Shown here one piece after another: positions 3,662 to 16,043 of a DNA stretch of 22,125 nucleotides; the first letter of the stretch is position 1, and each line of letters starts with the position of its first letter. Both the position numbers and the translations under genes were made by a program. Source of the DNA: a virus; IMG/VR virus record IMGVR_UViG_3300021354_000037, positions 1 through 22,125 of that record. The stretch is one strand, 5' to 3'. The notes below the pieces were generated by a model. That model had not been told where the DNA came from. It saw nothing but the letters and a program-made list of their open reading frames with translations, and ran no database searches.

Positions 3662-4450
3662 ACCACCGATGGGAGTGGTCGTGCGTGTAAGTCGCCGCGG
3701 AGTGTGAGTCTTTATAGATACTCGCCGTAGTTAGCCGGTTAGAGCGGTATTCGGTTTGTCGCGCCCAGAGATCACCCTGGAGAATAGACAAGGCAGTACC
3801 TTTGCCACAGTCAGGCCTCGCGACAGCTTCTTCTTATGCGATTGAATGAAGAAGGTACTTGGTACAGTACTCGCGTCTACTAATTAGACTATAACAACTC
3901 GGACAGGTGTGAGGGTCTGGAGTAACCGTTTACGGATATTCCGGATTTGGGATTGTAGGGTGAGTTTTTTCTAAGCATCAATAGACTAAGTTAAGCTACA
4001 CCCGTATGCGACCTGAGTCCATACCCTGCGAGGCCGCCTGACACCGTTTATGCCTTGCTTTTTGAACCATCTTTTGACATGTCGCTTTCTCTTTTCTGGC
4101 CAACTAATCCGAACAAAACTGAACCTGCCAGATCGAAGCGTAAGTACCCTGCAAAGCTGCACAAACCTCTTTGTTTACTTGGAAAAAACGGGAATGACAG
4201 TTCACCGTTAGTGGGATAAACTAACTATTAACAGACCGCCCCTCGGCAGACCGCCGGTCAAAGACTGTCGCTGGATAGGGACTGGTGATAGGTGTATGAG
4301 GGTTGAGGGATGGGGACGGATAGGCTTAACTCTTTTAGACCTCACTCACAACATGATCGATCATCAGCAGTTCGGGCTTGGTGTTGGTATTGCTCAGCAT
4401 GTTTGCGGGCTGAGAATCAAACCACACAGTTAGCTTGAACAGCAAAGTTT
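3662..4450 (+). ncRNA. Candidate large structured non-coding RNA (about 800 nt)
   Basis: There is no protein frame of note on either strand, but many inverted repeats. Examples on the plus strand: TGTCGCG (3757-3763) with CGCGACA (3819-3825), enclosing CCAG/CTGG and GGCA/TGCC hairpins; CTTCTTC (3827-3833) with GAAGAAG (3848-3854); GTCTA/TAGAC (3875-3889); TCTGG/CCAGA (4095-4132); GTTAGT/ACTAAC (4207-4225); CTCAGC/GCTGAG (4393-4414); TTAGCT/AGCTAA (4430-4456). A rightward promoter sits just upstream. Length and phage setting recall giant RNAs such as GOLLD or ROOL, but I cannot recognise a family consensus. No U-rich terminator was found at the right end, so the strand and 3' end are uncertain; it may instead be an untranscribed control region. 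Confidence 0.4.
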
Positions 4451-4454
4451 AGCT

Positions 4455-4491
4455 AAAAAGCAGAAACCCCCCAATTAAGGGGGGCAACTGC
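4455..4491 (-). terminator. Intrinsic terminator of the small-gene operon
   Basis: Minus-strand GCAG...CCCCCC TTAATT GGGGGG...CTGC (4491-4460) followed by TTTTT (4459-4455). It lies 17 bases after the stop at 4509 and ends the 6186-to-4509 operon. Six G-C pairs plus an outer 4-bp stem make it very strong. Confidence 0.9.
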
Positions 4492-4508
4492 ATGAGTGCT
4501 GCTCGGCG

Positions 4509-4703
4509 TTACATGTCGCGAATCTTCGTGTATGTCCAGTAGATAGCAACCCAACCAAAGACGAACACCCAACCTAGTAAATCATCAGCACCGCAAACCT
4601 GCGAAGAACAGTAGAACGGTCCCTCGTGGTGTTTGAACAAGTCAGCCAATAGATAAGCGGTGACGGGTGAAGCAATGCCAGCCATGTAGTTTCTAATTCT
4701 CAT
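4509..4703 (-). CDS. Small membrane protein
   Basis: 64 residues. It has a weakly hydrophobic N-terminal stretch (about 8-23) and a clear transmembrane segment GWVFVFGWVAIYWTY (about 44-58), with two cysteines between them (CSSQVC, residues 32-37) that could form a disulfide on the outer face. Start ATG 4703 shares a base with the upstream stop (TAATG) and has AAGGAGATG upstream, so it is well supported. It is the last gene of the operon and is followed by a terminator. Function unknown; superinfection exclusion or envelope modification would be plausible for a small phage membrane protein but has no direct support. Confidence 0.8.
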   Translation of the reverse strand: MRIRNYMAGIASPVTAYLLADLFKHHEGPFYCSSQVCGADDLLGWVFVFGWVAIYWTYTKIRDM

Positions 4704-4999
4704 TAGTTCATCTCCTTAAACATCTCACGCTTCAGGGCTTGTGACTTGGTGTAGTAAAAATCAATTCCTAAATCCCGTATCTGGCGTATTGAATAGGGTT
4801 CACACTCTGGTTTCAATACTTTGCGCTTCACTAGCTCTTTGATCGACGTGTAAACACTGTGGTCTCCATAACCATACTGAAACGGTAAAGCAAACAACAC
4901 TTCACCATCTACCCAAACACGTGACGACCAATAGGTGTTGCCAAAGGTCTTATCATTCCACTCTCGGACTTCAATAAGTATTGAATTAGGATTGTTCAT
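4703..4999 (-). CDS. Hypothetical 98-residue phage protein
   Basis: Soluble protein. The N-terminal half is beta-rich and aromatic (YWSSRVWVDGEVLFALPFQYGYGD); the C-terminal half is helical and basic (SIKELVKRKVLK, SIRQIRDLGIDFYYTKSQALK). It is coupled to both neighbours by TAATG junctions at 4999 and 4703. I recognise the style of protein from phage accessory regions, where a WxDGxxLFALPFQYGYG core recurs, but cannot name a family or function. It lies in the same operon as the DUF1281-like gene upstream. Confidence 0.8.
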   Translation of the reverse strand: MNNPNSILIEVREWNDKTFGNTYWSSRVWVDGEVLFALPFQYGYGDHSVYTSIKELVKRKVLKPECEPYSIRQIRDLGIDFYYTKSQALKREMFKEMN

Positions 5000-5631
5000 T
5001 ATTTCACCAATTCCCTTCTTGGGCAGTCATCAAATAGATACTGATCTTCGTAACCTTCGGAGCAGCGACAGTTCTCTATCATCTCAAGACCGACATACTC
5101 AGCATGTGATTCAGGAATGTCGTATTCAGTGGTAAAGACTTCTCCTTCAAAGTCCACTGACACCGAACCGCCCCAACCTTGTTCTTCTCGGTATGACCAG
5201 TCCATAATGAAATCATTGTCAAGGCAAATCTGAACAAATTTATCCATGATGGGTTTCGGTGTTGACCATGGTGTATCAAAACTGATCGACAAAGTAGCAA
5301 TGCCGCTTTCAATTTCAAGAGTCCCAAAGTCCTCACCTGCATCCCATTTACAGCCCCAGTTGTCACAATTCCACTTGTACCAGTTGTTCTCAGACTTCAT
5401 GCCTTCTGAATCACAAGTGGTGTGGTATTCATCAAGTATGTCGGCTGGAATTGGAATCACATTTTGAAATGAAATCCAGTCGGGTGTTGTTGTCTTGTAA
5501 ATAAGTGGCTCTGCCTGCTTATAGTTATCCATCACTGGGGTTTGAATCGGCTTACGTAATTGCTCACGTAAAGCTTTGACTGCAATCTCATCACCAGTGA
5601 TGTTCACTGTATTAAATACCCAATTTGGCAT
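4999..5631 (-). CDS. DUF1281/Api92-like ferredoxin-fold protein
   Basis: 210 residues. It opens MPNWVFNTVNITG, the usual start of the DUF1281 / Api92-like family, and contains the family signature NWYKWNCDNWGCKWDA (about residues 83-98) followed by ISFDTPWSTPKPIMDKF and a WSYREEQGWGG strand-turn. Family members are small ferredoxin-like-fold proteins carried by phages and plasmids; their role is not known. The C-terminus is acidic with several cysteines (NCRCSEGYEDQYLFDDC). The gene is coupled at both ends by TAATG. The family call is from motif memory; no catalytic site is evident. Confidence 0.85.
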   Translation of the reverse strand: MPNWVFNTVNITGDEIAVKALREQLRKPIQTPVMDNYKQAEPLIYKTTTPDWISFQNVIPIPADILDEYHTTCDSEGMKSENNWYKWNCDNWGCKWDAGEDFGTLEIESGIATLSISFDTPWSTPKPIMDKFVQICLDNDFIMDWSYREEQGWGGSVSVDFEGEVFTTEYDIPESHAEYVGLEMIENCRCSEGYEDQYLFDDCPRRELVK

Positions 5632-5789
5632 TAGTTAATCTCCTTTACTTTTACATTTTCAAATTCAAAGCCACCTCGGTAATCCTCAAAGTGTTCCTTT
5701 GCGTACTTCTCCACATCTGTTTCACCTTCAAGTTCTTCTTCGGTGAATTCAAAGTAGTGAGTAACTGTTACTTCTGCGTAGTATTCCAT
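5631..5789 (-). CDS. 52-residue acidic hypothetical protein
   Basis: Begins MEYYAEVTVTHYFEF and continues with a strongly acidic helix (TEEELEGETDVEKYAKEHFEDY) and a final strand FEFENVKVKEIN. ATG 5789 was chosen over the in-frame ATG 5828 because it has AAGGAG upstream and forms a TAATG junction with the previous stop. The beta-helix-beta pattern and acidity recall short phage proteins that bind or mimic nucleic acid, but nothing specific is recognised. Confidence 0.75.
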   Translation of the reverse strand: MEYYAEVTVTHYFEFTEEELEGETDVEKYAKEHFEDYRGGFEFENVKVKEIN

Positions 5790-5992
5790 TAGTTGTTCTC
5801 CTTGTTGTAATTGAGTGAGTAAGTGCATGTGCCATCACAATTCAAATTGTGATCGATCACTTCGTGCATTCTTTCAATGTTAGGGAAGTCACGCCCCAAC
5901 AATTTTCCTATTTCCAAAATCATTTGAAGTTCATCAACATCACTTTGATAAAACTTCATTGAGAAAAAGGCTGATTTTTCTATTGAGTTCAT
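5789..5992 (-). CDS. 67-residue hypothetical protein
   Basis: Mostly helical and acidic in the first two thirds (SDVDELQMILEIGKLLG, FPNIERMHEVIDHNL), ending in a short CDGTC motif and polar tail. It is coupled by TAATG at 5992 and 5789. The codons for EVIDH contain one of the TGATCGATCA palindromes (5850-5859). No family is recognised. CxxxC plus nearby histidines could bind a metal, but a full site is not visible. Confidence 0.75.
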   Translation of the reverse strand: MNSIEKSAFFSMKFYQSDVDELQMILEIGKLLGRDFPNIERMHEVIDHNLNCDGTCTYSLNYNKENN

Positions 5993-6186
5993 TAGTCCAG
6001 AACCTCGCTTGCTGCTAGCACTTCATACGCCTTACCGATTAACTGATCGACGTAAGTTTCTCGGTCTGAAAATGTTTCTCCGTATAGCTCGTAGTCGCCT
6101 TCGCAATCATCAAAGACACCAGTTTCCCAGATTCCTTGAAGTTCGCTCAGCATCAACGAAAAAACGGTCTTGGATTCTTCATTCAT
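5992..6186 (-). CDS. 64-residue acidic protein, first gene of the small operon
   Basis: Very acidic helical protein (MNEESKTVFSLMLSEL, then FDDCEGDYELYGETFSDRETYVDQLIGKAYEVL). ATG 6186 has an excellent ribosome-binding site, AGAGGAGAAATAA, and follows the promoter at 6233-6260 with a stem-loop at the predicted mRNA 5' end. It leads six coupled genes down to 4509. High expression is expected from promoter and ribosome-binding site together. Function unknown; early host-takeover proteins often have this size and charge (inference). Confidence 0.8.
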   Translation of the reverse strand: MNEESKTVFSLMLSELQGIWETGVFDDCEGDYELYGETFSDRETYVDQLIGKAYEVLAASEVLD

Positions 6187-6207
6187 TTATTTCTCCTCTA
6201 ATTAAAT

Positions 6208-6226
6208 TGATGAGAGTCACTCATCA
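6208..6226 (-). promoter_or_regulatory. 5'-terminal hairpin or operator of the small operon
   Basis: Perfect 7-bp inverted repeat TGATGAG/CTCATCA separated by 5 bases. Its right edge (6226) coincides with the transcription start expected from the -10 at 6233-6238, so it is either a stem-loop at the very 5' end of the mRNA or a repressor site at +1. Confidence 0.6.
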
Positions 6227-6232
6227 CTAACT

Positions 6233-6260
6233 ATTTTACACGTTTTTCCAGTAATTGCAA
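6233..6260 (-). promoter_or_regulatory. Sigma70-type promoter of the 6186-4509 operon
   Basis: Minus-strand -35 TTGCAA (6260-6255), 16-bp spacer, -10 TAAAAT (6238-6233) preceded by TG. It lies in an AT-rich tract 47 bases upstream of the first ATG. Confidence 0.75.
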
Positions 6261-6289
6261 GCAAATCTTCAAAAACTTTTTTGCGCTCG

Positions 6290-6299
6290 TGATCGATCA
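6290..6299. repeat. TGATCGATCA palindrome
   Basis: Perfect 10-bp palindrome. It recurs at 4354-4363 (in the long non-coding region, extended to 12 bp) and at 5850-5859 (inside a coding region, extended to 12 bp). Three copies within 2 kb is more than chance predicts. Possible operator or modification/restriction site; function unproven. Confidence 0.4.
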
Positions 6300-6360
6300 A
6301 CATGTGCTTTTTCAACTTGTTCCAGGGTGAAAAATAGCTGGTTTTTTTATACAGAGTTGA

Positions 6361-6413
6361 TGGATACCCTCAACAACCGCAAAACACAACCTCGGATACC
6401 CTCAACAATCGCA
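6361..6413. repeat. Two direct repeats, GGATACCCTCAACAAYCGCA (iterons)
   Basis: Copies at 6362-6381 and 6394-6413 differ in one base and are 32 bp apart, close to three helical turns, so a protein would meet both on the same face. A third, diverged copy (GGATACCCTCTACAACGCC) starts at 6554 within the adjacent DnaA-like gene and is preceded by TGT, giving TGTGGATA, close to a DnaA box. They sit between an AT-rich tract (6231-6290) and the DnaA-domain-IV gene, so a replication origin is the leading interpretation. Confidence 0.6.
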
Positions 6414-6437
6414 GTTACAAACTTTGTCAGATTGTTG

Positions 6438-6446
6438 TGCTATAAT
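6438..6446 (+). promoter_or_regulatory. Extended -10 promoter, rightward
   Basis: Plus-strand TGCTATAAT, a perfect extended -10 with consensus hexamer; no convincing -35. The expected start near 6453 coincides with the first base of an 11-bp stem. It opposes all genes and is antisense to the end of the DnaA-like gene. Confidence 0.6.
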
Positions 6447-6452
6447 CGCCAA

Positions 6453-6530
6453 TGTCGTTGACGGTGGGCTTAGTCACCCTTAATGAGCTTCTACGGGAAC
6501 TCCCCCTGTAGAGTGCTCCCGTCAGCGACC
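6453..6530 (+). ncRNA. Predicted three-way-junction RNA at the putative origin
   Basis: Plus-strand folding by eye: P1 pairs GTCGTTGACGG (6454-6464) with CCGTCAGCGAC (6519-6529), 11 bp with one U-G. P2 is GGG/CCC (6466-6468 with 6477-6479). P3 pairs GAGC-U-UCUAC (6485-6494) with GUAGA-G-(bulge)-GCUC (6508-6518), 10 bp including one U-G, and abuts P1 for coaxial stacking. Both wobble pairs would be A-C mismatches on the minus strand, so the plus strand is the better folder, in agreement with the promoter at 6438. No U-run terminates it; it may be the 5' part of a longer antisense transcript, a replication-control or primer RNA, or a 3'-end structure of the minus-strand mRNA. Confidence 0.5.
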
Positions 6531-6929
6531 TCTCTGCTCCTGCACAATGCTGTGGATACCCTCTACAACGCCCTCAGGGACGTTCTCGCACCCTGCCATG
6601 ATAGTTGTGTGATCTTTGCCTACGTAGTCACCTATTTGAGGATAAGACCATTTGCCATAGGTTCTAATGCAAGCCCACCATAAGTGTCTAGGCTTGATGT
6701 ACTGCTTGAAGCGTCTGTCACCATCAATAAACTGTGGTGGGATACCAGTTAAATCACTGATTACCTTCAAGTAAGCGTCTGGATCGAAGTCGTTTGCGAT
6801 ACTTAGCCACTCGGTAACGAGCTGCTTCCCTGTGGGCTGACTGACAACCGCAGATGTCTTTGCCTTCGTCGTCGAACTCGATGGGGATTTCGCTACGGAT
6901 GTGCCAGGAGTAGCCTTTTTCTGTACCAT
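6522..6929 (-). CDS. DnaA domain IV-like DNA-binding protein
   Basis: 135 residues. The first 50 are low complexity (Ser/Thr/Lys/Ala/Pro). The rest resembles DnaA domain IV: YIKPRHLWWACIRTYGKWSYPQIGDYVGKDHTTIMAGCENV (about 78-117, broken here as a helix-turn-helix followed by the DHTT signature at 106-109). In DnaA this domain reads the DnaA box. The AAA+ ATPase domain is absent, so this is a stand-alone box reader: an origin-binding initiator partner, an anti-DnaA competitor, or a transcription factor. The start ATG 6929 has GAGGA upstream, and no other start exists before the domain, so the gene overlaps the WhiB gene by 176 bases out of frame. Three GGATACCCTC repeats lie at its 3' end. 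Confidence 0.85.
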   Translation of the reverse strand: MVQKKATPGTSVAKSPSSSTTKAKTSAVVSQPTGKQLVTEWLSIANDFDPDAYLKVISDLTGIPPQFIDGDRRFKQYIKPRHLWWACIRTYGKWSYPQIGDYVGKDHTTIMAGCENVPEGVVEGIHSIVQEQRGR

Positions 6930-7176
6930 GTTTGATTTCCTCGTTACGTGATGGTGGCTTAAAGCCTAGTAGTACTGCTGTGGCACGAAGTTCTAGGTAA
7001 TCCAGACCAGCCCAGATACCATAAGGTTCTCGGTACTCCAATGCCCATTGTAGGCACTGTGCCTTGATGTCACACAACGAGCAGATAGCCTTAGCCAGCT
7101 CTACTTGTTCTGGTGCTTCGTCAAAGAATAGGTCTGTCTTACCTAGACAACGTGCTTGTGACCAGTCTGTACCCAT
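6754..7176 (-). CDS. WhiB-family Fe-S transcription regulator
   Basis: 140 residues with the WhiB cysteine set C10, C32, C35, C41 (CxxC and CxxxxxC spacing) that holds a [4Fe-4S] cluster, and the GIWAGL turn (53-58) that contacts the principal sigma factor. The C-terminus has a second cysteine pair and the segment CQSAHREAARYR, then a basic DNA-contact tail KYRKRLRSRR. The same C-x-x-AHR block occurs in the next WhiB gene, so the C-terminus is real even though it overlaps the DnaA-like gene by 176 bases. WhiB proteins are confined to actinobacteria and their phages, where they redirect host transcription. The start lacks a clear Shine-Dalgarno; the gap to the previous stop is 24 bases. Confidence 0.92.
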   Translation of the reverse strand: MGTDWSQARCLGKTDLFFDEAPEQVELAKAICSLCDIKAQCLQWALEYREPYGIWAGLDYLELRATAVLLGFKPPSRNEEIKHGTEKGYSWHIRSEIPIEFDDEGKDICGCQSAHREAARYRVAKYRKRLRSRRLLEGNQ

Positions 7177-9083: not shown

Positions 9084-10115
9084 TTAAATAATGCTTTGCC
9101 AAGCTTCTGCCCATCTCCAGGCATTACGCTCGTATGTATTCTCACTGGCAAATGCTTTACCTGCTTGAATAAGATCGACGTTATCAGATGTGAGCAACTG
9201 ATTCAAGTCTTTCAACCAATCATGTTTCTCTTTAGCAATAAGACCAACGCCCTGCTTGTTAAGTAGTTTGTATTCTTCTGTAGGTGAAGCAACGAATGGT
9301 ATGCCCAGTGCCGCGTATTCCATGCCTTTTAGGTATGACTTACATTGGTTGAACCTGCTCATACGCAGTGGGACAACGCCAATGCTGAAAGATTTAACTG
9401 CTTTAGGGTAGTTCTTTAACTCAACCCAGTCTGACGACAAAGACTCACCATCATCAAAACCAGTAATCTCACCAGCGTTTTTTGAGCCAATGGCTAGGAA
9501 CTTAGCGTCGTGGTTACGTACTGCACGGCGTAACGAGTAACCCATAACCTCTAGGTCGCCAACATGTGTCTCAGTACTACCAGTCCAACCAACAACTTTC
9601 TTGCCTTCAGTTAGTTCCCAGTTTTCACCGTAGTCAACCTCAATGTCTAGGTAATAAGCAGGCACATAGTTTCGTAATACAATTACGTTCTTGTTAGGAA
9701 TCAACTTAGCGAGCTCAGGTGTGCTTACAGTAACCATGTCTGCTAAACCACACGCTTTAAGCATGGTGTCAGGAACGTCTAAAAGACCAGCCTTTGCAAG
9801 GCCTTTGCGGTATCCATTACGTGGATCAATGCTCCAGTAATCGTCGTCTAATTCAACAACAACTTTAGTCCCGTTGGCTTGAATAAGTGGAATGGCTTGA
9901 AGAACCTCAGGAAATATAGGACGTTGAATAACCATAACGTCGTCGCCAGTAGGTTCAATGGAAATCATCCTGTCGCCATCAAACTTGGCTCTTTGGCTCT
10001 GTGACTGGTAATCAAGAGTAACATCAAGTCCAGCGTTCTTTAGCACAGTGGCCGGTGCAATAATTCTATAGAAACCACAACCACCAGTGTCAGCGTGACA
10101 AACACTTACTTTCAC
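9084..10115 (-). CDS. Glycosyltransferase, GT-B fold (family 4-like)
   Basis: 343 residues. The N-terminal half begins VSVCHADTGGCGFYRIIAPATVL, the sugar-acceptor Rossmann entry seen in phage GT-B enzymes. The C-terminal half carries SIGVVPLRMSRFNQCKS, then KGMEYAALGIPFVAS and PTEEY, corresponding to the nucleotide-sugar EX7E-like region (KxxEYAAxGxPxVAS). It would transfer a sugar from an NDP-sugar to phage DNA, a virion protein or a host glycan. Start is GTG 10115 with GGGAGAAGCA upstream and a GTGA overlap with the nuclease gene. Its place among replication genes makes modification of DNA bases (together with the methyltransferase) thinkable, but the acceptor cannot be read from sequence. 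Confidence 0.88.
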   Translation of the reverse strand: MKVSVCHADTGGCGFYRIIAPATVLKNAGLDVTLDYQSQSQRAKFDGDRMISIEPTGDDVMVIQRPIFPEVLQAIPLIQANGTKVVVELDDDYWSIDPRNGYRKGLAKAGLLDVPDTMLKACGLADMVTVSTPELAKLIPNKNVIVLRNYVPAYYLDIEVDYGENWELTEGKKVVGWTGSTETHVGDLEVMGYSLRRAVRNHDAKFLAIGSKNAGEITGFDDGESLSSDWVELKNYPKAVKSFSIGVVPLRMSRFNQCKSYLKGMEYAALGIPFVASPTEEYKLLNKQGVGLIAKEKHDWLKDLNQLLTSDNVDLIQAGKAFASENTYERNAWRWAEAWQSII

Positions 10116-11168: not shown

Positions 11169-11724
11169 TTACGAGCCTTTCCATCACCCATTCCACACAC
11201 GGTACAGCGACAGCGTTACCCATCTGCTTGTACCTTGCAGAGTCCGATTGTCCCTCTGTCCAGTTGTCAGGGAAACCTTGTAAGCGTTCACATTCCACTG
11301 GTGTCAAACGACGTACTACTGACTCAGTAGCCACAGAAGCATGTGAAACTCTGTCAAGAGTGTACATTGGGCTTTCAGCATCACCAATGCCAGTTCCATT
11401 TTGTTTTTTCTCTAATTCACGTCCATCATCTATTGGAAATGCAACAGCCATACCTGCTCCTTCTTTGCGTAATGTAGGCCAGACATCTTCGCTCGGTTGA
11501 GCTGAGAGTCCTTGTGTGTGGCTAAATGCAACCATTGGCATGTTATTCCCACCTGTTCCCATTCGGGCTTGCAGGGTGTTTATAACGGCACCCTGGATTC
11601 GTATGTCCTCTACTCGATTGCCGTAGAAGATAATTGTAGTAGTTCGTGTGTCACCATTGTCAAAAGCATTTAATGTAGGCACAACGCCACCTTCGTACCA
11701 AGATTCATAATCTTGGTCATTCAT
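11143..11724 (-). CDS. dcm: Cytosine-5 DNA methyltransferase, C-terminal fragment (frameshifted)
   Basis: Carries the target-recognition region and the closing motifs of an m5C methyltransferase: VRRLTPVECERLQGFPDNWTE (IX region; shown as separate RRLTPVEC and LQGFPDNW signatures) and QMGNAVAVP (X). It lies in the +1 frame relative to the N-terminal part. I give ATG 11724, which overlaps the N-part stop by 8 bases; ATG 11763 with GAGGGA upstream is an alternative. Family-like sequence (KAKRA...ESWYEGGVVPTLN) continues upstream of 11724 in this frame, so this was once one gene. The two halves may still assemble as a split enzyme, as known for M.EcoHK31I. The end overlaps the replication-protein start by 26 bases. 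Confidence 0.85.
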   Translation of the reverse strand: MNDQDYESWYEGGVVPTLNAFDNGDTRTTTIIFYGNRVEDIRIQGAVINTLQARMGTGGNNMPMVAFSHTQGLSAQPSEDVWPTLRKEGAGMAVAFPIDDGRELEKKQNGTGIGDAESPMYTLDRVSHASVATESVVRRLTPVECERLQGFPDNWTEGQSDSARYKQMGNAVAVPCVEWVMERLVNDYQTRTR

Positions 11725-12472
11725 CGCTCGCTTTGCTTTTATGAACCACGAGATCAGTTGCATCTTTATAATCCCTCGCTTTCAAAGCTGAAAAAGAACC
11801 ATCTATTTCGTACTGTCCGAAAGACTGCATACGTGCAACAACGCCTGTTCCAGCATCGGTGGTAACGTCTTGCCCCTTCTTCCGGCTCGTCTTAGTATTC
11901 CCTCGCATGCCCTCGCTGAGAGCAAGTATTTCGCTGGGACCTGTTCTGTCTCCAAGACTTGCGACAATGAACACACGGCGGCGTCTTTGGGCGACTCCGA
12001 AGTGTTGAGCGTCAAGCACACGCCATCCCACACCGTACCCCCGTTTAGCCACTTCCCCGATGACGATTCCAAAGTCCCGTCCTTGGTTACTTGATAGAAG
12101 GCCAGGGACGTTTTCCAAGACAAGGTACTGTGGTCTAAGTTCGTCCACAAGTCGTATAATCTCCCAATAAAGTCCGGAGCGTTCTCCGGCAAGACCGGCG
12201 CGTTTGCCGGCAACTGAAAGGTCTTGGCAGGGGAACCCACCGGTGATAATCCCTCGATCGGGAACGAATCCTGCTGCTCTAAGTTGCTCACCTGTAATCT
12301 CCTTTACGTCAGTGAAGTGTTTGCTGTTAGGGAATCTTTTTTCAAGAACGCCACGTGCGCTCTTATCTATTTCTACTGTGGCTACTACTTCAATACCATT
12401 TCGTTCCATTGCTAGGTCAAAGCCACCGACACCTGCAAATAAGGAAACTGCTGTCAACATCCGTCTGTCCAT
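11717..12472 (-). CDS. dcm: Cytosine-5 DNA methyltransferase, N-terminal catalytic fragment (frameshifted)
   Basis: 251 residues with motif I SLFAGVGGFDLAMERNG (SAM binding), motif IV GGFPCQDLSVAGKRAGL with catalytic Cys82, motif VI LENV (119-122), and motif VIII QRRRRVFIVAS. It stops after the start of the variable region (ARDYKDATDLVV), where the frame is lost at an AAAA run (11740-11737). Removing one A would join it to the C-terminal fragment in one continuous frame. Methylation would protect phage DNA from host restriction. Start ATG 12472 has GGGGGA 11 bases upstream; ATG 12460 (7-base overlap with the previous stop) is an alternative. Frameshift could be genuine decay, programmed, a split enzyme, or a sequencing error. 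Confidence 0.88.
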   Translation of the reverse strand: MDRRMLTAVSLFAGVGGFDLAMERNGIEVVATVEIDKSARGVLEKRFPNSKHFTDVKEITGEQLRAAGFVPDRGIITGGFPCQDLSVAGKRAGLAGERSGLYWEIIRLVDELRPQYLVLENVPGLLSSNQGRDFGIVIGEVAKRGYGVGWRVLDAQHFGVAQRRRRVFIVASLGDRTGPSEILALSEGMRGNTKTSRKKGQDVTTDAGTGVVARMQSFGQYEIDGSFSALKARDYKDATDLVVHKSKASDE

Positions 12473-13544: not shown

Positions 13545-13738
13545 TCTTCTTCTCCTATTTCTCTGGCTGAGACTAACTTAACGTACCCAACACTGTGTAC
13601 GCCATTATGTAATACATGCTCCCAATGCCAATCCTCTGGCCAGGTGCTAGTAAATCCACCTAGTTGGCTGTCATGGTCACAATCAAATTCAATTACTGCT
13701 CTGTACCTCTTTACTCCCGTTGGTTCGGCAGCGGTCAT
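13541..13738 (-). CDS. 65-residue hypothetical protein
   Basis: Acidic, aromatic protein with a YRAVIEFDCDHDSQLGG strand and a WPEDWHWEHVLHNGVHSV segment, ending SAREIGEEE. It sits between the Fe-S exonuclease and ERF with ATGA junctions on both sides, so it is co-translated with the recombination pair. No family is recognised. Its acidity could suggest modulation of DNA-binding partners, but there is no direct evidence. Confidence 0.78.
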   Translation of the reverse strand: MTAAEPTGVKRYRAVIEFDCDHDSQLGGFTSTWPEDWHWEHVLHNGVHSVGYVKLVSAREIGEEE

Positions 13739-14622
13739 GATTCACTCCTTTTCTGTAGGTTGCTTTGGTTAATCCATACCTGACCTGGACCATCCTCTAA
13801 ACACACAGTACGAAACGCACAATACTCGCACTGCCATGCTCTCCCGTTCGGGTCAAGTTCTTCTAGTCGCCCATCGTCATTCAGGGCAATACGTTCTGGT
13901 AGGTAACCGTTCTCAATGTTGTAGTGCATACCGTTCATGCGCTCTAACTCAGCCATTGCTAGTGGCTCCCAAATGGCTCGATCTATGTGGAACTCAGCAA
14001 GTACACGGTCATAGCCACTTAGGTTCATGCGGTCAGCCTTCTGCTTAGACAAAGCTTCAAAGGTAATAGAACCCATGATGACTGTCTCAATGTGTACGCT
14101 GTCGTCGCCACCTTCAATGCCTAGGGCGTTCATACCAGCCTGGGCAATAGCCTTCTTTGCTGGTCCCTCAGGGTAGGAGAACTCACCCTTCATACGCTTC
14201 CAGCCCACCTGCTTGTCAAAGCCATAGGAGCCCATAGTCTTAAGTTCGTAGAGTACGTGCGTGCCACCGATGTAACCGTAGTCCAGCCCCAAGTCTTTCA
14301 CTGGAATAAATGCGTCACACGATCCACTCACAAAGTCAGCGCCACTGGCTACTTCAAACTGAGCGGTAGGGAACTGACGTAGGATGGCGTCTTGTAATGC
14401 TTCGTGTACGAGCGTACCGATACCTGTTACCCAGGCACCAGCTTCGTCCATTGGCTCAGTAGGCACGGCATCAAAGGCTGCGTAGCCTTGCTGTCTCCCA
14501 CACGACCATGCTGACGAGTACCGTAGCGGTGTGTTTAATGCGGTTGGTTTTGGTGTCTGCGATTTCTCCCACAGCTCTTTCACCAAAAGATGAGTTAAAA
14601 CTATTTTTTTGACTGGCTCCAT
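13735..14622 (-). CDS. Cas4/RecB-like Fe-S PD-(D/E)XK exonuclease
   Basis: 295 residues. Cys41 (SCGRQQGY) together with C265, C268, C274 (CEYCAFRTVC) form the split four-cysteine [4Fe-4S] signature of Cas4 and AddB nucleases. Between them lie the catalytic residues: His73 (LVHEAL), Asp103 (GSCDAFI), Glu126 and Lys128 (YELKT). It probably degrades one strand at DNA ends so that ERF can anneal them. It is the first gene after the promoter at 14650-14678, with GGGGG as ribosome-binding site. No cas genes or repeats lie nearby, so a CRISPR adaptation role is unlikely. Confidence 0.92.
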   Translation of the reverse strand: MEPVKKIVLTHLLVKELWEKSQTPKPTALNTPLRYSSAWSCGRQQGYAAFDAVPTEPMDEAGAWVTGIGTLVHEALQDAILRQFPTAQFEVASGADFVSGSCDAFIPVKDLGLDYGYIGGTHVLYELKTMGSYGFDKQVGWKRMKGEFSYPEGPAKKAIAQAGMNALGIEGGDDSVHIETVIMGSITFEALSKQKADRMNLSGYDRVLAEFHIDRAIWEPLAMAELERMNGMHYNIENGYLPERIALNDDGRLEELDPNGRAWQCEYCAFRTVCLEDGPGQVWINQSNLQKRSES

Positions 14623-14649
14623 TTGGAACCCCCTTTCAAGTCATATTTA

Positions 14650-14678
14650 ATCATAGGGGTGTGACACTCCCATGTCAA
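14650..14678 (-). promoter_or_regulatory. Consensus promoter of the recombination/replication operon
   Basis: Minus-strand TTGACA (14678-14673, perfect), 17-bp spacer, TATGAT (14655-14650). The 15-bp imperfect inverted repeat GGGGTGT-G-ACACTCC (14656-14670, one mismatch in seven pairs) fills the spacer, an ideal repressor site. It drives 14622 leftward, probably as far as 6522. Confidence 0.88.
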
Positions 14679-14688
14679 GCATTGTTTC

Positions 14689-15921
14689 TTAAACCCAGGT
14701 AAGCCCACCAAAGTCTCGGCCATTGTTCTTTACTGCAACGAGGTTTGCGTGTACATAGGAAATCTGCTTCTCCTCGTGCCACGGGCTAGGGTAGAACGTC
14801 TTGACCCATGAAGGCTGGAACTTTGCTTCGATCTCAGGCACGTACTTACGGTAGTTGTCTTCAGTGAAGTACCAAAATGAGTTCTCGTTCCAGAAGGCTA
14901 CGTGGGTGGGGTCCTGGTGGGCGCCACGACCACTGCTGTCTGGGGTCATACTTAGGAGCATGCCACCGTGAGCCAGTAGTTTCCAAATCTTGTTCATCAC
15001 TGCTACCTTGTCTGGAATGTGCTCTAGAAAGTCATAGGCACGGATAAGACCACACGAGTTGTCTGGTAGGTCAAGCTCTAGGAAGTCACCGATGTAGTTA
15101 ACGTTGGGTCCACCGTGGATGTCTACGCCTAGGTAGCCTTCAGGCTTGTCGTGTGCCGCGCCTAGGTCTAGACAGTGCAGTTTGCGTCGACGTGCCCAGG
15201 CCATTGTGTTGCGTTCAATGTACTTGTGATACAACTCAACAGTTTCCACCTGAATCTTGGCGTTAGTTTCAGTCTGTGTCTGTGTCTGGTCTGGGTGGAC
15301 GCGCTGTAGGTACAGGTTCTCACGGATGTAGTAGAACTCACCCACCTGAAAGAACTTAGCCATAAGGTCTTGGTCGTCTAATACAAAACGATCTGCGTCA
15401 TACCCACCAGTTCGCTTGTAAGCGTCAGCACGGAAGGCACGTAGGTGGTTCGGTGCGTACCAGATGTAGGAAACGTTGTGTGGGTACGGTGCAAAGCCAG
15501 CAGCGACGTTGTAGCCGTCAATGTCCTTGTATGTCCAACCGTGGTTAGAGTCAAACCTATCTCCGTTAGGCGTACCGTCAGCGTTAATCTGGGCAAACTG
15601 TGAGTAGCAGAACACCACGTCCTCGTAGGTGTCAAAGACTTCCTTGACTTCTTCCAAGGCTTCAGGCATGAGCTTGTCATCGTGGTCTAGTTCAACCAGG
15701 ATGTCGCCGGTGCAGTAACTAACTGCTTCCTTCTTCAGTGCTCCAACGTTTGTCTCCACAGACCAGTAGATAGTGACTCGCTGATCCTCTGGGCCATTCC
15801 ATTCAGCGTCGCCGTTGAGCAGTACAATCCACTCCCAGTCCTCATAGGTCTGTTCGTTGAGTGAGGTGTAGCACTCGTTCAGGTACTTCGGATCGTGGCT
15901 AGGTGTAAATACTGAAATCAC
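14689..15921 (-). CDS. Glycosyltransferase (GT2)-methyltransferase fusion
   Basis: About 410 residues. The first half is a GT-A glycosyltransferase family 2: VFTPSHDPKYLNECYTSL, then WEWIVLLNG, and ELDHDDKLMPEAL with the metal-binding DxD-like motif, and FVLDDQDLMAKFF. The second half (from about 240) is a Rossmann methyltransferase: LHCLDLGAAHDKPEGYLGVD (SAM site) and RAYDFLEHIPDK, then GGMLLSMTPD. It likely adds and methylates a sugar on a virion protein, DNA or host glycan. GTG 15921 was chosen: GGGAG is 6 bases upstream and it forms a GTGA junction with the small gene before it; the TTG at 15933 is less likely. The promoter at 14678 lies just downstream. Confidence 0.9.
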   Translation of the reverse strand: MISVFTPSHDPKYLNECYTSLNEQTYEDWEWIVLLNGDAEWNGPEDQRVTIYWSVETNVGALKKEAVSYCTGDILVELDHDDKLMPEALEEVKEVFDTYEDVVFCYSQFAQINADGTPNGDRFDSNHGWTYKDIDGYNVAAGFAPYPHNVSYIWYAPNHLRAFRADAYKRTGGYDADRFVLDDQDLMAKFFQVGEFYYIRENLYLQRVHPDQTQTQTETNAKIQVETVELYHKYIERNTMAWARRRKLHCLDLGAAHDKPEGYLGVDIHGGPNVNYIGDFLELDLPDNSCGLIRAYDFLEHIPDKVAVMNKIWKLLAHGGMLLSMTPDSSGRGAHQDPTHVAFWNENSFWYFTEDNYRKYVPEIEAKFQPSWVKTFYPSPWHEEKQISYVHANLVAVKNNGRDFGGLTWV

Positions 15922-16043
15922 TTTATCTCCCAATTATCTAAGACTTCGTTTAACTGCTTCAAGATGTTGTTTAAGCGGTCTAGTGATTCTCCCACAGCCC
16001 ACAGGTCTACCATCATCTCCACTGCGTCTAATTCATTCTCCAT
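15918..16043 (-). CDS. 41-residue helical protein
   Basis: MENELDAVEMMVDLWAVGESLDRL followed by NNILKQLNEVLDNWEIK: one long amphipathic helix with heptad-like leucines, suggesting a coiled coil. ATG 16043 overlaps the previous gene by 11 bases and has GGGAAG upstream; the stop forms a GTGA junction with the glycosyltransferase fusion. No function recognised. Confidence 0.65.
   Translation of the reverse strand: MENELDAVEMMVDLWAVGESLDRLNNILKQLNEVLDNWEIK

Follow-up and report, generated by a model that had tools for sequence, protein, structure and literature searches.

A family of phage-encoded three-way-junction RNAs predicted to pair with the translation starts of replication genes of the same phage

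In S. aureus, the small RNA (sRNA) RsaA masks a Shine-Dalgarno sequence with a C-rich motif and makes an additional loop-loop contact with its target (PMC3961350). Among phage-encoded sRNAs, PreS (LPR1) of phage lambda, about 88 nt long, targets the host dnaN mRNA in an Hfq-dependent manner, Sar of P22 acts on the ant mRNA, and OOP of lambda is a cis-antisense RNA encoded near the lambda origin (PMC12197685). The DNA analysed here, referred to as the window, is a virus record of 22,125 bases, and its plus strand encodes at positions 6454-6529 a compact RNA belonging to a family that is absent from Rfam. To our knowledge, the regulon is known for few phage sRNAs, and no sRNA of such a fold has been described in phages of actinobacteria. 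The RNA is likely a trans-acting phage sRNA that would mask the ribosome-binding sites of mRNAs for the phage's own replication and recombination functions.

The existence of a structured RNA at this position had been claimed in an earlier note on this DNA. Folding of positions 6440-6540 on both strands and comparison with shuffled sequence, as suggested there, here with dinucleotide shuffles, showed that the structure is real: the plus strand reached a minimum free energy of -39.3 kcal/mol (z = -5.14), with none of 200 shuffles as stable, while the minus strand (-37.9 kcal/mol, z = -3.60) was weaker relative to its own shuffles. The coordinates given in the note were right within one base, the 11-bp stem P1 was recovered, and the two hairpins enclosed by it are both present, one of them (P3) adjoining P1 without a linker; the corrected coordinates, with 13 pairs and one bulge in P3, are given in Table 1.

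Covariation among homologues, also suggested as a check, was clear. In an alignment of 15 distinct sequences, 96.7% of the cells were paired and 20 of the 23 pairs had two-sided compensatory changes, with none of 500 shuffles reaching any of five measures; in controls in which the partner was shifted by 1-3 columns, 39-50% of the cells were paired. The first four sequences alone already contained two-sided changes in 15 of the 23 pairs. RNAalifold recovered the same three-way junction unaided from the 15-sequence alignment, an agreement that leans towards the structure because the alignment was fitted to a covariance model. Across the family, the two linkers (a single U and GUAAU), the P3 base (GA/UC) and the inner end of P1 were constant and the two apical loops varied, with L3 pyrimidine-rich in every member (78% pyrimidine, CUCCC or CCCUUUC as core). 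An internal kissing contact of L2 with L3 was rejected, as their complementarity is not conserved, and so was a small protein starting at the AUG of the UAAUGAG junction, this AUG being absent in L165.

Table 1. Coordinates of the RNA, its promoter, neighbouring genes and the predicted target in the window.
Feature	Position	Strand	Basis or remark
Extended -10, TGCTATAAT	6438..6446	+	Predicted +1 at 6453/6454
Three-way-junction RNA core	6454..6529	+	Fold, covariation, RNAalifold, covariance-model matches
P1 (11 bp)	6454-6464/6519-6529	+	Two-sided changes in 10/11 pairs, 15 sequences
P2 hairpin (3 bp)	6466..6479; pairs 6466-6468/6477-6479	+	3/3 pairs covary
L2, loop of P2, CUUAGUCA	6469-6476	+	Predicted second mRNA-contact loop; complementary to clamp leaders
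Junction linker UUAAU (consensus GUAAU)	6480..6484	+	Family alignment
P3 hairpin	6485..6518; 6485-6497 with 6505-6513 and 6515-6518	+	13 pairs, one bulge
L3, loop of P3, AACUCCC	6498-6504	+	Pyrimidine-rich; predicted Shine-Dalgarno-pairing loop; own-target tests
DnaA domain-IV-only gene (Bac_DnaA_C)	6522..6929	-	Pfam PF08299, E 4e-13; not required by the RNA family
WhiB-like gene	6754..7176	-	Pfam PF02467; syntenic landmark, 3' end always beside the RNA
PD-(D/E)XK / Cas4-like exonuclease gene	13735..14622	-	PHROG 1706, E 2e-8; PHROG 1990; weak PDDEXK_1 match
Predicted target leader, UGACUUGAAAGGGGGUUCC	14623..14643	-	Directly before the exonuclease ATG
Sigma-70-like promoter of the exonuclease leader, TTGACA-17-TATGAT	14650..14678	-	Read from sequence

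At least 17 distinct versions of the RNA were recovered, from uncultured IMG/VR phages encoding WhiB proteins. A search with the large terminase yielded 80 related loci, among which a single-sequence profile search detected the first distant homologue (L044/L046); L110 was found by a covariance model built on two sequences, and L131 and L154 by pattern scans. The first pattern scan of IMG/VR returned mostly chance matches, and model R1 was too narrow, true homologues being missed in whole records. A four-sequence model combined with a WhiB-based scan gave 31 matches below E 4e-4 and none between these and E 3, and a third model added L206 and L069. Wherever the RNA was found, the record contained one copy. 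As defined by models R1-R3, the new family is a three-way junction backed by compensatory change, with its own promoter at a fixed distance and a location 3' of the second WhiB gene. The records are fragments, and the absence of the RNA or of a clamp gene (see below) from a record is therefore weak evidence.

Close relatives of the window had an identical RNA with the flank on one side fully diverged. One of them, L038, is a 25.8-kb contig (3300021131_000468) that begins inside P1 of the RNA, either by an assembly break at the hairpin or at a real genome end.

No match anywhere in the window reached an Rfam 15 gathering cutoff, positions 6350-6650 gave no Rfam match up to E 5, and no Rfam match overlapped the RNA in 12 homologous loci. 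In GenBank phages, blastn detected no direct homologue and a WhiB tblastn returned only distant WhiBs, tblastn found no TerL relative in cultured phages, and in bacterial genomes a WhiB search gave nothing but host WhiBs. A search for the RNA in 296 actinobacterial genomes gave no match, which is weak evidence given its strict filters and the lack of a positive control. The WhiB proteins of the RNA-bearing phages point to actinobacterial hosts, for which WhiB is a marker (PMC10202952).

Several described RNA classes were considered and rejected: a hammerhead ribozyme, also a three-way junction, because the Rfam scans gave no hammerhead match at the RNA; a phi29-type packaging RNA, because the large terminase of these phages is of the ordinary kind (phrog_38, E 5e-48); and a riboswitch, because there was neither an Rfam match nor a sense gene downstream. 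Separately from the family RNA, L172 carries a type II hammerhead ribozyme at 5085-5146 on the minus strand (40.8 bits, E 7e-5, above the Rfam gathering score), found in the same Rfam scan.

The extended -10 that the earlier note had placed before the first stem, with transcription starting at this stem, turned out to be common to the homologues: the motif TGnTAnnnT was present in 16 of 16 distinct homologues checked, 3-6 nt upstream of the aligned start of the RNA, compared with 0.8% of 24-nt background windows. The argument drawn from G-U pairs for the strand also extended to the whole family, with 14 G-U cells against 4 A-C cells on the plus strand, and the structured strand is therefore the plus strand. 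That the RNA runs opposite to all genes is correct for the window and incorrect for the family. A terminator-like hairpin lies directly upstream of the promoter in some relatives (e.g. L172 and L195), suggesting a separate transcription unit. The 12 nt after P1 are 71% pyrimidine, and the sequences contain no strong U-run after P1, so that the 3' end is uncertain; transcription probably stops no more than about 10-15 nt beyond P1, and the predicted length of the RNA made from its own extended -10 promoter is roughly 80-95 nt.

Every RNA of the family lies beside the second WhiB gene, at its 3' end and encoded on the other strand. The antisense link to the DnaA-like gene suggested earlier did not hold. 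In the window, the 3' strand of P1 (6519..6529) shares only about 8 nt with the 3' end of the DnaA-domain-IV gene, and tblastn located such a gene only in the window, L037, L165, L166 and L154 among RNA-bearing phages; the RNA occurred without it in L195/L110, L202/L058, L172/L075, L200, L191, L104, L069 and L170, and L113 possessed the gene (1437-1733) without the RNA. The overlap is thus not conserved, and since most carriers lack the gene it is incidental. The iterons (GATACCCTC) adjoining the RNA in the window are confined to a few phages and do not belong to the RNA family.

Three GGATACCCTC(A/T)ACA repeats are located around the RNA in the window (6362-6381, 6394-6413 and 6554-6573), one of them ending in the DnaA-box-like TGTGGATAC, and the repeats also occur in L037, L038 and L165. 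The DnaA-domain-IV-only protein, which is devoid of the AAA+ part, may bind at these repeats.

The pyrimidine-rich loop L3 matched the translation starts of the phages that encode it. In a translation-start scan, the L200 phage had exact complements to L3 of 13 nt and 12 nt, both at Shine-Dalgarno regions, and the L195 phage had three 9-nt complements, all at gene starts; over 14 genomes, the translation starts were fitted better by a phage's own L3 than by the L3s of others (permutation p = 0.001). The own-versus-other test was then applied by gene family, covering 37 families each present in at least 4 phages. With L3 alone, the sliding clamp (DnaN-like) ranked first (p = 0.0016; mean energy -11.4 with own L3 versus -7.0 with other L3s), a p value that sits at its floor because the 6 phages allow 720 permutations, which limits the power, and that alone fails a strict Bonferroni correction over the 37 families. 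The clamp proteins are two-domain and DnaN-like, with matches to beta domains of DNA polymerase III (Pfam PF02767, E down to 1e-13) and to the processivity factor PHROG 947. Three of them (L110, 4447-5052; L044, 4700-5323; L131, 8424-9074) gave near-equal scores with PHROGs 3007 and 12598, which are labelled RusA-like Holliday junction resolvases, labels that may be wrong.

The clamp leaders of L206 and L037 were found later by a clamp profile and were not used in forming the idea: the former fits its own L3 well (GAAAGAGG, 8 nt), and the latter only weakly (GGGAG, 5 nt), pairing better with the loop of another phage. This 5-nt GGGAG match is all that the nearest clamp relatives of the window (L037 and L038) offer to L3. 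Over eight clamp leaders, with 40,320 possible assignments of loops to leaders, the true one ranked third by energy and second by the longest Watson-Crick run, and within each of two clades it was the best of 24; the L3 duplexes in these leaders span -16 to -2 before the start codon. A clamp gene was present in 9 of 17 RNA-bearing relatives versus 0 of 13 RNA-lacking relatives checked, several RNA-bearing phages having no recognisable clamp. By computed complementarity and covariation, L3 thus resembles the UCCC-type seed of a trans-acting sRNA that pairs with Shine-Dalgarno sequences. All p values of the target tests are only indicative, because the loops were delimited by eye, the starts were predicted, the phages are related and several tests were run sequentially. 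The role in replication control that had been suggested for the RNA fits these results, because the best-supported targets are the sliding-clamp and exonuclease genes, but the cis-antisense route through the DnaA-like gene does not.

A second contact would involve L2. In 8 of 9 clamp leaders (the ninth being that of L038, which shares its RNA with L037), a hairpin ends 15-25 nt before the start codon and exposes a loop complementary to L2, for instance in L165 (UUGACUA to UAGUCA) and L191 (UGAGA to UCUCA); L170 has UGACUAG unpaired, directly before the Shine-Dalgarno sequence. Pairing of L2 with the leader hairpin loop ranked 528 of 40,320 against permuted L2s (p = 0.013) and gave p = 0.0002 against shuffled leader loops. 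There was no clear signal for L2 over the unrestricted clamp leader, and when the strongest hairpin anywhere in the leader was chosen automatically, the pairing failed against permutation; the signal emerged only under the rule of a hairpin ending shortly before the Shine-Dalgarno sequence. This pairing is likely and in part post hoc, a grading that follows from the failure of the less constrained tests.

Leaders with both sites also precede other genes, coding for proteins of 57, 96 and 54 aa in L195, 117 aa in L165, 87 and 159 aa in L191, and 102, 82 and 56 aa in L172. Genes with both an L2 and an L3 site numbered 89 with own loops versus 64.5 with permuted ones (p = 0.004), and when L2 and L3 were scored together over the 37 families, p was 0.0011 for the clamp, again the top family, and 0.011 for the exonuclease, the next in rank. 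We lean, by a little, towards a two-loop RNA regulator with a regulon of its own, in which the clamp, the exonuclease and several small genes would share one leader code (hairpin loop read by L2, Shine-Dalgarno region by L3) and loops and leaders would co-evolve phage by phage, keeping the circuit private.

A profile search found no clamp gene in the window. In L037, with the identical RNA, the clamp gene lies about 240 nt from the RNA; comparison with L037 and L038 shows that the window has a different sequence left of the RNA, at about 4300-6350, a replacement that removed the clamp gene. The best predicted target in the window is the exonuclease gene (Table 1), whose leader forms 9 contiguous pairs with L3 (one G-U; -17.3 kcal/mol; p = 0.002 versus shuffled leaders) and also contains a UGACU match to L2. 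The position of the sigma-70-like promoter would place the 5' end of the exonuclease mRNA at the predicted sRNA site, and the exonuclease leader of L170 has the same design (UGACUAGACAGAAAAGGGGGUUUCC). Two glycosyltransferase-like genes were also observed in the window, one at 9084-10115 (weak Pfam match) and one at 14689-15933 (sequence reading only), the second being located in the early region, with a cytosine-C5 methyltransferase gene (11717-12472) beside it.

In the proposed mechanism, the sRNA would be transcribed from its own extended -10 promoter and fold into the three-way junction presenting two loops, of which L3, on P3, would pair with the phage's own mRNAs at their Shine-Dalgarno regions, and L2 would pair just upstream, usually with the loop of a small hairpin whose end lies 15-25 nt ahead of the start codon. 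Across the family, the principal target would be the two-domain DnaN-like sliding-clamp gene, with the exonuclease gene and several small early genes as further targets with leaders of the same design; in the window, where the clamp is lacking, the predicted target would be the exonuclease gene. Masking of the ribosome-binding sites would lower the translation of replication and recombination genes. The family, the fold, the strand, the promoter and the covariation of loops with leaders were obtained by computation; that the RNA is expressed, that it physically pairs with the leaders, that it represses rather than activates them and when it acts in infection are inferred.

The RNA could instead act where it is encoded, as a cis-antisense RNA repressing the DnaA-like gene or as a primer at the neighbouring iterons. 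In the window the RNA runs into the DnaA-domain-IV gene from that gene's 3' side and sits beside the iterons, and in all homologues it is convergent with a WhiB gene, so that read-through would oppose the WhiB operon; however, the scarcity of the DnaA-like gene among RNA-bearing phages, its presence without the RNA in L113 and the overlap of a few nucleotides all speak against such a role, the covariation of the apical loops with distant genes is explained by neither model, and nothing found favours a primer. We regard local action of this kind as quite improbable. It is still harder to believe that the fold acts as DNA, or as a terminator or protein site ending the WhiB operon, with loops devoid of function. 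The constant location at the operon 3' end, the ability of the minus strand to fold (z -3.6) and the pyrimidine-rich stretch after P1 are what one would expect of such an element, but the G-U excess favours the plus strand (14:4), the promoter is fixed at the 5' end of the RNA, no T-run was read on the WhiB-sense side, and the loops covary with their targets.

Action in trans might also take another form. Host mRNAs could be the main targets, with L3 serving as a general anti-Shine-Dalgarno-like loop and the phage matches being secondary; the pyrimidine content and C-rich cores of L3, the phages without a recognisable clamp and the action of lambda-encoded PreS on host dnaN (PMC12197685) are in line with this, but the better match of each phage's genes to its own L3 than to those of other phages would not be expected from a general or host-directed loop, and we judge host targets to be unlikely as the main ones. 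Equally, the same leaders could be bound and activated, for example by opening of the leader hairpin or stabilisation of the mRNA. Upstream of the Shine-Dalgarno sequence, clamp leaders do have a hairpin with a loop that L2 is predicted to contact, pairing over the Shine-Dalgarno sequence could in principle remodel the leader, and PreS is reported to target dnaN in a manner favouring phage propagation (PMC12197685). The L3 duplex nevertheless covers the Shine-Dalgarno region in eight clamp leaders, which would normally block the ribosome, and activation is in our estimate an unlikely outcome. Masking of the ribosome-binding sites of the phage's own replication and recombination mRNAs is thus the reading retained here.

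If so, a phage would limit or time its own replication clamp, in parallel with the action of lambda PreS on host dnaN. The RNA, its promoter, its targets and the two-loop rule are readable from sequence because loops and leaders change together, and the combination of an L2 site with an L3 site offers a code for listing new target genes in each genome. Such private pairing of each phage RNA with the leaders of its own phage is also relevant to how co-infecting relatives compete.

No homology of the family RNA to RsaA or PreS was found, nor any structural relation to PreS, and the Rfam scans of the window and of the 12 homologous loci gave no 6C match at the RNA. The 6C sRNA differs in its fold, which consists of two hairpins, and Rfam holds a 6C model. 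The actinobacterial setting and the C-rich loops are shared with 6C (B11 sRNA), whose gene is chromosomal (PMC10470900). Like Sar and OOP (about 69-77 nt), the RNA described here is a small phage RNA that would regulate phage genes, but its pairing is predicted to be bipartite, short and directed to distant genes. With PreS it would share the character of a phage-encoded trans-acting sRNA with a sliding-clamp gene as key target, whereas PreS acts on host dnaN with Hfq and the RNA here fits the clamp-like gene of the phage itself. As in RsaA (PMC3961350), an unpaired C/U-rich seed on the Shine-Dalgarno region would be combined with a second loop contact, which in RsaA is a loop-loop contact in the coding region and here would lie upstream of the Shine-Dalgarno sequence; unlike RsaA, the RNA is phage-encoded, forms a compact three-way junction, has no terminator hairpin of its own and is predicted to target replication genes of the same phage. 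By analogy, the best-supported reading is that the phage RNA would work like the C-rich seed sRNAs of Gram-positive bacteria.
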